From: Pedobacter sp. D749
Lineage (GTDB): Bacteria; Bacteroidota; Bacteroidia; Sphingobacteriales; Sphingobacteriaceae
DNA length: 64,000 nt
Reading direction: 5' to 3'
Assembly: GCF_019317285.1 (NCBI RefSeq)
Contig: NZ_CP079218.1
Location: forward strand, 806,001 to 870,000
The notes under the pieces are model-generated. The model saw only the letters and a program-made list of their open reading frames with translations. It was not told where the DNA came from and did not search any database. Positions within the stretch are counted from its first letter, which is position 1, and the number at the start of each line of letters is the position of its first letter. The position numbers and the translations under genes are program-made. Positions 3,255 through 5,751 of the stretch are shown here, piece after piece.

Positions 3255-4577
3255 TTATGTCGTTTTATCTTCGGACTTCGGACTTCCAACTCCTGACTCA
3301 AAGTTCAATCTAATACTAACTGCATTTTTATGTGCTTCCAAACCTTCAGCTGCAGCCAATATCTCTACTGTAGGGCCAATATTGTTTAATCCTGTGGCCG
3401 ATAACTGCTGAAAGGTGATCTTTTTCAGAAAAGCATCGGTAGATACGCCTGAATAAGCTTTTGCAAAGCCACTGGTTGGTAAAGTATGGTTGGTTCCCGA
3501 GGCATAATCGCCAACGCTTTCCGGTGTAAAGTTGCCTAAAAATACCGATCCTGCGTTGATAATCAATGGAGTTAGACTTTTGAAATGCTCCGTAGCTAAT
3601 ATTAAGTGCTCTGGTGCATATTCATTCGAAAATTGCATTGCCTCATCCAGGTTTTCAACTAAAACGGCATAAGAATTGGCTATTGCTTTAGCAGCGATCT
3701 CCTTCCTTGGGAGAATAGCAAGCTGATTTTCAATTGCTTTTAAGGTTTCAGCGATGATTTGATTTGAAGTAGATACTAAAATAGCCTGACTATCAGTTCC
3801 ATGTTCTGCCTGTGCAAGTAGATCAGCAGCAATAAATGACGGATTGGCAGTCTCATCAGCAATGACCAAAACTTCCGATGGTCCGGCAGGCATATCGATA
3901 GCGACTTTATTTTGGACCATGGTTTTTGCCGTGGTTACATAACGGTTGCCAGGGCCAAAGATCTTATATACCTGTGGCACGCTTTCGGTTCCGAAGGCCA
4001 TTGCCGCAACGGCCTGGGCGCCGCCAATTAAGAATAATTTTTCGATCCCCAGCAGCACGGCACAGTAAGCCAGATAACAATTGGTTTTGCCATCACTTTG
4101 TGGAGGAGAACAAACCACTATTTCTTTACATCCTGCAATGATTGCAGGTGTGGCCAGCATTAAAAATGTGCTCGGTAAAACAGCTGTTCCCCCCGGGATG
4201 TAAAGTCCTACTTTTTCAATTGCCCTCGATTCTCGCCAGCACACAACGCCAGGCATCGTTTCGATTTTGTCCTCAGTTTTTAACTGCGACTGGTGAAAAG
4301 TTTTGATATTTTGATAGGCCGTATCAATTGCATTTTTTGCTTCAACTGGTATGGTAGATGCAATTGCTTTTAATTCTTCTGCATTTAAAAACAGCTTCTC
4401 CAAATCAACTTTATCGAATGCTTTTGCAAAGTTGAAAAGTGCCTGGTCGCCATCTTTTTTTACAGTGCTGATGATGTCTCTTACACGTTCTTCAACCAAT
4501 TTATCGTCTTCAATCTGTCTTGAACAAAGTTCTTCAATTTTTGATTTAGATAAATCTGTATAATTGTAGATTTTCAA
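3255..4577 (-). CDS. hisD: HisD, histidinol dehydrogenase, with a repeat-derived C-terminal tail
   Basis: 440 residues. It oxidises histidinol to histidine in two NAD+-dependent steps. Family motifs are intact: GPGNRYVT for the nucleotide, DMPAGPSEVLV, the Zn-site segment AEHGTDSQA, EHLIL, and NHTLPTSG near the end. The native protein appears to end around NAVSIRLN. The last dozen or so residues (after RLN) are encoded by DNA made of the words GAGTCAG, GGAAGTCCGAAG and CCGAAGAT. The same words fill the gap near 28,870-29,020. An intergenic repeat has therefore probably replaced the natural stop and lengthened the protein by about 12 residues. Activity is probably unaffected because the tail is outside the motifs. 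Confidence 0.96.
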   Translation of the reverse strand: MKIYNYTDLSKSKIEELCSRQIEDDKLVEERVRDIISTVKKDGDQALFNFAKAFDKVDLEKLFLNAEELKAIASTIPVEAKNAIDTAYQNIKTFHQSQLKTEDKIETMPGVVCWRESRAIEKVGLYIPGGTAVLPSTFLMLATPAIIAGCKEIVVCSPPQSDGKTNCYLAYCAVLLGIEKLFLIGGAQAVAAMAFGTESVPQVYKIFGPGNRYVTTAKTMVQNKVAIDMPAGPSEVLVIADETANPSFIAADLLAQAEHGTDSQAILVSTSNQIIAETLKAIENQLAILPRKEIAAKAIANSYAVLVENLDEAMQFSNEYAPEHLILATEHFKSLTPLIINAGSVFLGNFTPESVGDYASGTNHTLPTSGFAKAYSGVSTDAFLKKITFQQLSATGLNNIGPTVEILAAAEGLEAHKNAVSIRLNFESGVGSPKSEDKTT

Positions 4578-4625: not shown

Positions 4626-5477
4626 TTATTTGATTATTTTCTCGATTGGCATTACCAAAATGCCTTCTGCACCTGCTGCTTTTAAACTGTTTATTTTGTC
4701 CCAGAAATCTTCCTCGGCAATTACAGAATGAACAGCAACCCAGTTTGGTTCGAAGAGCGGAACTACCGTTGGACTTTTTACCCCTGGAAGTAAATCGACT
4801 ACTTTTTGAAGGTTATCTTTTGATACATTTAGTACCACGTATTTGTTAGATTTTGCACTGAGTACAGATCGGATACGTTGAAGCAATTCTGCAACTTCCG
4901 GATTGTCGGCTATCGATTTGTTTCCGATTAAAACCGCTTCAGATTGCATCACATCAGCGAATGGTTTTAGCCCATTGCTCTTCAATGTTCCGCCTGTTGA
5001 TACGATATCAAAAATGGCATCACTTAAGCCTAAACCCGGACCAATTTCTACCGATCCTGAAATGGTTCTGATATCGGATTTAATACCCTTTTCCTGTAAG
5101 AATTTTTCGAGGATTACGGGATAAGAAGTAGCAATCGCTTTGCCGTTCAATTCTTCCAGTTTTTGAATATTGCTGGTGGCCTGAACAGCTATTTTTAAAG
5201 TACATTTTCCGAAGCCTAATTTTTGAAGATAATCTACTTCGGCTTTTGTTTCTACAATTACATTTTCACCAACTATACCCAGATCAGCAATGCCGTCTTG
5301 TACATATTCAGGAATATCATCATCGCGAAGGAAAAGGATTTCTAAAGGAAAATTAGTAACGGTTGAGATGAGTGAGCTTTTGTAGTTTTCGAAAGATAAA
5401 CCACAGTTTTTAAGTATTTCTACAGATTTTTCGTTTAACCTACCCGACTTCTGGATAGCGATTTTAAGTGTTTTCAA
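4626..5477 (-). CDS. hisG: HisG, ATP phosphoribosyltransferase (long form)
   Basis: 283 residues, matching the long HisG form with a C-terminal regulatory ACT-like domain (about residues 205-283), which normally lets histidine inhibit the enzyme. The catalytic part starts KIAIQKSGRL and has DLGIVGENV and the PRPP-binding segment DIVSTGGTLKSNG. PGVKSPTVVPL follows near residue 230. It commits PRPP and ATP to histidine synthesis. Translation appears to begin at TTG (5477-5475); no in-frame ATG fits better. It is the first structural gene of the operon and lies downstream of the leader described at 5,516-5,676. Confidence 0.96.
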   Translation of the reverse strand: MKTLKIAIQKSGRLNEKSVEILKNCGLSFENYKSSLISTVTNFPLEILFLRDDDIPEYVQDGIADLGIVGENVIVETKAEVDYLQKLGFGKCTLKIAVQATSNIQKLEELNGKAIATSYPVILEKFLQEKGIKSDIRTISGSVEIGPGLGLSDAIFDIVSTGGTLKSNGLKPFADVMQSEAVLIGNKSIADNPEVAELLQRIRSVLSAKSNKYVVLNVSKDNLQKVVDLLPGVKSPTVVPLFEPNWVAVHSVIAEEDFWDKINSLKAAGAEGILVMPIEKIIK

Positions 5478-5515
5478 AGTATTGAATATAGAGTGAACAA
5501 GAAATTATTTTACGG

Positions 5516-5538
5516 AAAAAAGTTTTGAAGTACAAAAC
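5516..5538 (-). terminator. Candidate his attenuator terminator
   Basis: Read leftwards, the leader RNA has GTTTTG, a five-base loop and CAAAAC, followed directly by six U residues (A run at 5516-5521). It lies 17 bases after the stop of the His-rich leader peptide and about 40 bases before hisG. The stem has only six pairs, mostly A-U, so it would be a weak terminator. The 3' arm can also pair with TTTGAA at the start of the leader coding sequence (5585-5590), giving a possible competing structure. Confidence 0.5.
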
Positions 5539-5548
5539 AAACATATCA

Positions 5549-5564
5549 TATCGCCTATCGGCGA
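5549..5564 (-). promoter_or_regulatory. Hairpin overlapping the leader-peptide stop
   Basis: A perfect six-base inverted repeat, ATCGCC-GATA-GGCGAT in the leftward reading, covers the last codons and the TAG stop of the leader peptide. A ribosome reaching the stop would mask it, while one stalled on the His codons would not. That is the geometry expected of a pause or anti-terminator element, but I could not fold the RNA. Confidence 0.45.
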
Positions 5565-5602
5565 TGGTGTAAATGTAAGTGATGGTTCAAAGTTAAATTC
5601 AT
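5555..5602 (-). CDS. hisL: His-rich leader peptide of the his operon (hisL-like)
   Basis: A 15-codon reading frame on the leftward strand reads MNLTLNHHLHLHHRR and ends at TAG. Five of its fifteen residues are histidine, including two adjacent pairs. It begins about 38 bases after the predicted transcription start and 125 bases before hisG. It is followed by a hairpin over the stop codon and a weak U-tract terminator. A short His-rich frame in this position is the hallmark of ribosome-mediated attenuation, as in enteric his operons. Stalling at low His-tRNA would favour read-through into hisG. Chance occurrence of five His in fifteen codons exactly upstream of hisG is unlikely, but expression is not shown by sequence. 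Confidence 0.72.
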   Translation of the reverse strand: MNLTLNHHLHLHHRR

Positions 5603-5646
5603 AAATTATTTCTGCCAGTATCAATACGTTAGCTGATAAGCGCTGG

Positions 5647-5676
5647 CAAATATAGTGTTTGAAATGATAAAACAAA
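5647..5676 (-). promoter_or_regulatory. Promoter of the his operon
   Basis: In the leftward reading there is TTTG (5676-5673), an 18-base spacer and TATATTTG (5654-5647). This fits the Bacteroidota housekeeping promoter (TTTG at -33, TAnnTTTG at -7). Predicted start is near 5640, giving a leader of about 160 nt before hisG, which includes the His-rich peptide. Confidence 0.7.
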
Positions 5677-5679
5677 AAA

Positions 5680-5702
5680 TAATGGCACTTAATTTGCCAT
5701 TA
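5680..5702. terminator. Hairpin upstream of the his promoter
   Basis: Arms TAATGGCA (5680-5687) and TGCCATTA (5695-5702) form a perfect eight-pair stem with a seven-base loop. Leftwards it is followed by a T run that merges into the -33 element of the his promoter. Rightwards it is followed by TGCTGTTTTTATT. It could insulate the his promoter from leftward read-through, or act on the divergent transpeptidase transcript. Confidence 0.4.
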
Positions 5703-5751
5703 TGCTGTTTTTATTGTTAATAACCCATATTTATATTAAAATTTTACTCTT

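Follow-up and report, generated by a model that had tools for sequence, protein, structure and literature searches.

In the erm type of translational attenuator, stalling of the leader ribosome is believed to expose the start of the gene that follows. The enterobacterial his operon leader (Rfam RF00514) consists of a short His-rich leader peptide before hisG and of structures that compete with each other in a ribosome-dependent manner. In Flavobacterium psychrophilum, amino-acid operons have been inferred to be preceded by leader-peptide attenuators; the same study noted, ahead of hisG, a structured 5′ element that is kept in the Flavobacteriaceae (PMC9723704). The actinobacterial LEU element before leuA has a leader peptide with regulatory codons and no terminator in the described structures, and its codon-bearing RNA pairs close to where the first gene begins (PMC1262725).

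The leader upstream of hisG in Pedobacter sp. D749 shares features with each of these systems. As in the enterobacterial his leader, a short His-rich peptide precedes hisG and the competing structures depend on the ribosome; however, the Pedobacter leader has no Rfam match, no stable terminator and a different peptide, and its conserved competitors are the helices P1 and H2, together with P0, which joins the 5′ UTR to the strand before hisG. Like a translational attenuator, it combines stall codons in a leader ORF with the lack of a terminator, but in contrast to the erm type it would sense an amino acid rather than a drug, and one stalled ribosome is not predicted to free hisG. The regulatory-codon leader, the lack of a terminator and the pairing near the start of the first gene are shared with the LEU element, which differs in amino acid and phylum and uses a pseudoknot and Shine-Dalgarno pairing instead of a P0/P1/H2 rod (PMC1262725). 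The his attenuators of Bacteroidota outside the family (the F. psychrophilum hisG 5′ element, PMC9723704, and our loci L100–L118) also have a His-rich leader before hisG and are probably of the same ancestry, but they contain a strong terminator and a covarying antiterminator, whereas the Sphingobacteriaceae leader contains neither.

The his leader of Pedobacter sp. D749

The window is a stretch of 64,000 nucleotides (positions 806001–870000 of the 5.84 Mb single-contig genome), and its features are given in Table 1 by their positions within it. Among named relatives, Pedobacter alluvionis and P. borealis are the nearest by hisG. An earlier note on this DNA had described a complete-looking his attenuator, made up of a promoter, a leader frame with five His codons, a hairpin across the leader stop codon (H1) and a second hairpin followed by six U (H2), taken as a terminator. 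All of these elements are present, although H2 as a terminator does not bear out the word complete (see below). The promoter (TTTG-N18-TATATTTG, 5676–5647, minus strand) is conserved throughout, and transcription is predicted to start at about 5642–5643 (minus strand). The flavobacterial sigma-A motif is TAnnTTTG, at −12 to −5 (PMC9723704).

Table 1. Features of the his leader locus (positions in the window)
Feature	Position	Strand	Remarks
Conserved box CAAATTAAGTGCCAT	5682..5696	-	directly 5′ of the −33 element; same position in most sampled Pedobacter
−33 promoter element TTTG	5673..5676	-	
−7 promoter element TATATTTG	5647..5654	-	18 bases 3′ of TTTG; kept before nearly all sampled family leaders
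P0 strand A	5603..5628	-	5′ UTR adjoining leader ATG; pairs with 5478–5511
Leader peptide ORF MNLTLNHHLHLHHRR	5555..5602	-	five His codons; ATG 5602 to TAG 5555
P1 5′ strand TTTGAA	5586..5591	-	leader codons 4–6; pairs with 5524–5529 (H2 3′ arm)
H1 hairpin ATCGCC-GATA-GGCGAT	5550..5565	-	over leader stop codon; −8.8 kcal/mol
H2 hairpin GTTTTG-TACTT-CAAAAC	5522..5538	-	−2.9 kcal/mol; 'terminator' of the earlier note
Six-U run	5516..5521	-	3′ of H2; restricted to closest relatives
P0 strand B	5478..5511	-	ends at hisG start codon
hisG	4626..5477	-	TTG start; first gene of his operon; Pfam HisG, E 1e-51

When the 250 bases upstream were shuffled 20,000 times, only 3 shuffles contained an ATG frame with five or more His codons within 25 codons or fewer, which argues that the leader ORF is not due to chance. 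Within the five aligned His codons, variation is greatest at the third position (entropy 0.70 versus 0.37 and 0.21), as expected from selection on the peptide.

The genome contains two exact copies of the box upstream of the promoter (CAAATWAARTGCCAT, 5682–5696, minus strand), the second of them at 3046445–3046459. It is absent at the equivalent position in the sampled genera other than Pedobacter and is a possible regulator site. A hairpin at 5679–5703, picked up by the terminator scan, was rejected, as its left arm is unconserved and it lies upstream of the promoter.

Distribution of the His-rich leader

Besides that of D749, the sample of hisG upstream regions comprised 57 from Pedobacter genomes and 40 from other Sphingobacteriaceae genera; a further 20 represent the class outside this family, and 20 the rest of the phylum. 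A His-rich frame lies ahead of hisG in all 58 Pedobacter (core LNHHLHLHHR), each with the five His codons kept, in nearly all other sampled Sphingobacteriaceae (core FTHHVHFHHR), in 20/20 class loci and in most phylum loci carrying the same HisG type. Conserved frames of this kind in related Sphingobacteriaceae had been proposed as a check of the attenuator, and they are found. By contrast, the suggestion that the Pedobacter leader was shaped independently does not hold: His-rich leaders before hisG span the Bacteroidota, usually as classic attenuators. The sensor is therefore old, and the leader of the Sphingobacteriaceae is a derived branch of an ancient line. On sequence grounds, the His-codon-sensing leader peptide upstream of hisG is real, ancient and under selection.

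A covariance model of H1 plus H2 matches one copy per genome, before hisG, in 39/61 family genomes, a figure that is not independent because the model was trained on part of the searched genomes. These matches cover 17 of the 25 family genera, with many of the remainder lacking hisG, and there were none in 96 genomes from other families of the class. His_leader (RF00514) has no match at or above its gathering cut-off in the window, in the 20 other-family loci or in 4 further loci, and no Rfam family corresponds to the leader; sub-gathering Rfam matches at the locus are all at chance level and were rejected. Nor does Rfam report a T-box at the his leader locus.

Covarying structures of the leader RNA

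Folding of the full-length leader gives a rod consisting of P0, P1 and a weaker helix P2, in which His codons 8–10 pair with the strand before H2, capped by H1. In the fold of the leader sequence from the window, P0 is present in the centroid and only partly in the minimum-energy structure. P1 and H2 draw on one shared strand and are mutually exclusive.

In a 72-sequence alignment, 99.3% of cells are paired in H1 and 96.2% in H2, the latter with two-sided changes. When own partners were compared with permuted ones in 39 sequences, z was −9.0 for P0 (0/10000 permutations), −7.9 for P1, −4.1 for P2 and −6.3 for H2; with one sequence per genus, the values were −4.5, −4.7, −2.6 and −3.0, respectively. 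Most control segment pairs gave z near zero in both sets, the exceptions being the 5′ UTR versus the strand before H2 (−2.1, one sequence per genus) and leader codons 1–7 versus the strand before hisG (−2.4, larger set). Pair counts on the 72-sequence alignment agree and exceed both shuffled and slid controls. The compensatory changes that the earlier note had proposed to look for thus support P0, P1 and H2 each. Support is weaker within Pedobacter (P1 z −3.2, P2 z −1.3), and one Pedobacter subclade has lost P1 in this register.

At the base that P1 and H2 share, a leader base, an H2 5′ base and an H2 3′ base also covary three ways (G,G,C in 34 sequences and C,C,G in 20), as expected of a switch, although much of this contrast is a single split between Pedobacter and other genera. 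Two further candidates were rejected: a helix of His codons CACGTACAT with the H2 loop TACGTG, for which the leader varies without matching changes, and a second upstream ORF over H2 (ATGTTTCTACGTGAA, MFLRE), whose frame is shifted in L075 and L081 while the stem is kept. Conservation in 58/58 Pedobacter, covariation and shuffling are all contrary to the idea that the His-rich frame and its structures are accidental and lack a regulatory function, which we regard as scarcely credible.

We modelled a ribosome as a footprint held unpaired, using three footprint sizes and 86 sequences. The probability of H2 is about 0.08 in the free RNA, 0.9 with a ribosome at the first His codon and 0.11–0.21 with a ribosome at the stop codon, and this response is robust across the three footprint sizes. 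For RNA ending 10 nt past H2 the contrast is weaker (0.14 free, 0.24–0.25 at the stop codon and 0.73–0.80 stalled). In these models, ribosome position selects the structure: the rod is formed when the ribosome is absent or at the stop codon, and H2 when it waits at the His codons.

Absence of a terminator in Sphingobacteriaceae

We scanned the region from leader to hisG for terminators, counting hairpins with an energy of −6 kcal/mol or lower and a U-rich tail behind them. Outside the Sphingobacteriaceae, 26 of 29 loci have a strong terminator, with median energies of −16.5 kcal/mol (class set) and −14.8 kcal/mol (phylum set), and the 5′ arm of the terminator can pair with the end of the leader to form an antiterminator (z −10; 0/10000 permuted partners). 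These leaders look like ordinary ribosome-mediated transcription attenuators. By the same scan, a terminator is found in 0/38 family members and in 2/58 Pedobacter, and both of the latter are H1 itself, leaving no genuine case. The Pedobacter leader has two features of a his/trp-type attenuator, namely a regulatory-codon ORF directly upstream and exclusive structures chosen, by computation, by ribosome position, but not the conserved intrinsic terminator before the first gene.

In some of the loci outside the family (L100, L102, L107, L111, L113 and L132), the strand before hisG could pair with the loop and 5′ arm of the terminator (z −3.9; e.g. TGAGTATATCAAG / CTTGATATACTCA in L107). It is possible that this strand is a third competing strand, which would act after read-through. 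A tRNA-Phe gene lies near the his leader in L104 and L118, both from one other family of the class.

The earlier note had taken H2 plus the six U as an intrinsic terminator under control of the His-rich leader, as in enteric bacteria. GTTTTG/CAAAAC and the six U do form a hairpin followed by a U-run in the window and its close relatives. However, the stem reaches only −2.9 kcal/mol, and the U-run is missing in most Pedobacter, which read TTGTTTC or GGTTTTTA after H2, and in nearly all other genera, which have at most a short U-run (TTTT in a few). What is conserved is thus the H2 stem, with covariation, and not the U-run that the note had expected to be kept along with it. The predicted sign is also wrong for a his operon: because a stalled ribosome favours H2, a terminator at H2 would mean more termination under starvation.

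Genuine terminators occur in other leaders of the same genome. Upstream of trpE (L221), a Trp leader (MINNIHTWLWQSNSNELRWLRMNKI) is followed by a terminator of −21.9 kcal/mol and a U-run; upstream of ilvD (L225), an Ile-rich leader (MNLSTNIISNLIIVISQKRGGNRCV) is followed by one of −11.2 kcal/mol and a U-run. Neither region has an Rfam match. Judged by these elements, the trpE and ilvD leaders are classic leader-peptide attenuators, and the poor documentation of ribosome–polymerase coupling in Bacteroidota, raised earlier as a weak point, is therefore no general obstacle. Taken with the weak stem, the local U-run and the wrong sign, they make termination at H2 improbable.

Proposed output of the switch at hisG

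In most cases, no more than about a dozen bases separate the end of P0 from the start of hisG. This start is TTG or GTG in 58/58 Pedobacter and in 28 of the 29 close-spaced family members, and ATG in 20/20 class loci. The position of P0 and the non-AUG starts suggest control of hisG translation. At equilibrium, a single stalled ribosome leaves the P0/hisG start region unopened (mean change 0 to −0.4 kcal/mol), whereas queuing of a second ribosome at the start of the leader opens it (mean −1.6 to −1.8 kcal/mol); in the window itself the effect of the queue is only about −0.5 kcal/mol.

The best explanation, in which we have moderate confidence, is a ribosome-operated, histidine-sensing RNA switch without an intrinsic terminator that is read out at hisG translation. 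We propose that (i) when His-tRNA is ample, the ribosome would clear the leader and the rod would close, covering the start of the leader as well as the start region of hisG; (ii) the closed rod would reduce hisG translation, and the untranslated mRNA might be exposed to Rho or decay; and (iii) a shortage of His-tRNA would leave stalled and queued ribosomes in place, which hold the rod open, so that H2 forms and hisG is translated.

The least certain step of this model is that translation, rather than transcription, is the level of output. Confidence is only moderate because the modelled opening of P0 needs a ribosome queue, because P0 does not adjoin hisG in all members and because hisD (window position 4577, minus strand; L139–L218) also starts with TTG, in 47 of 53 relatives with a readable start, which weakens the TTG of hisG as a specific sign of translational control. 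P0 adjoins hisG in most members, but in L062, L073 and L074 hisG lies 85–130 nt beyond H2 and P0 is still near H2. In L062, from the genus that includes Parapedobacter, an extra small ORF (MESPISIADGMAGFTDINKPVTHS) lies between P0 and hisG; its TGA overlaps the hisG ATG (ATGA), which suggests translational coupling.

In the displaced members the spacing of P0 is thus kept relative to H2 rather than hisG, as might be the case if the same leader switch were read out by Rho-dependent termination or by RNase attack on the rod, with hisG translation affected indirectly. The lack of an intrinsic terminator and the unchanged P0 under a single stalled ribosome are also consistent with such a readout, and terminator-less leaders with possible Rho sites have been proposed for actinobacterial cys operons (PMC1262725). 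However, strand B is conserved and usually adjoins the hisG start, and an unsystematic look identified no conserved rut-like or nuclease-site sequence. We consider a Rho or RNase readout less probable than translational control, but a serious alternative.

Alternatively, P0 could be a positive element that brings the hisG start to the mRNA 5′ end, giving ribosomes access to hisG past the leader. In the predicted transcript P0 is close to the 5′ end; it also adjoins hisG in most members and stays intact under a stalled ribosome, as this idea would have it. The displacement of hisG in some members argues against it, as does the absence of a bacterial precedent in the literature searched, and a positive role of P0 appears very improbable.

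Implications for Bacteroidota

Leader-peptide control of his genes reaches far through the Bacteroidota, where it has hardly been described before. In one family, a textbook switch seems to have been refitted with another output. We tentatively suggest that the ancestral his attenuator of the Sphingobacteriaceae lost its terminator and became a translational switch, in which a helix joins the mRNA 5′ end to the hisG start, while trp and ilv stayed transcriptional. This family, which kept the amino-acid sensor and discarded the terminator, provides a natural experiment. With the trp and ilv attenuators of the same cell as controls, both ribosome–polymerase coupling in Bacteroidota and the conversion of a transcriptional into a translational switch become directly testable.
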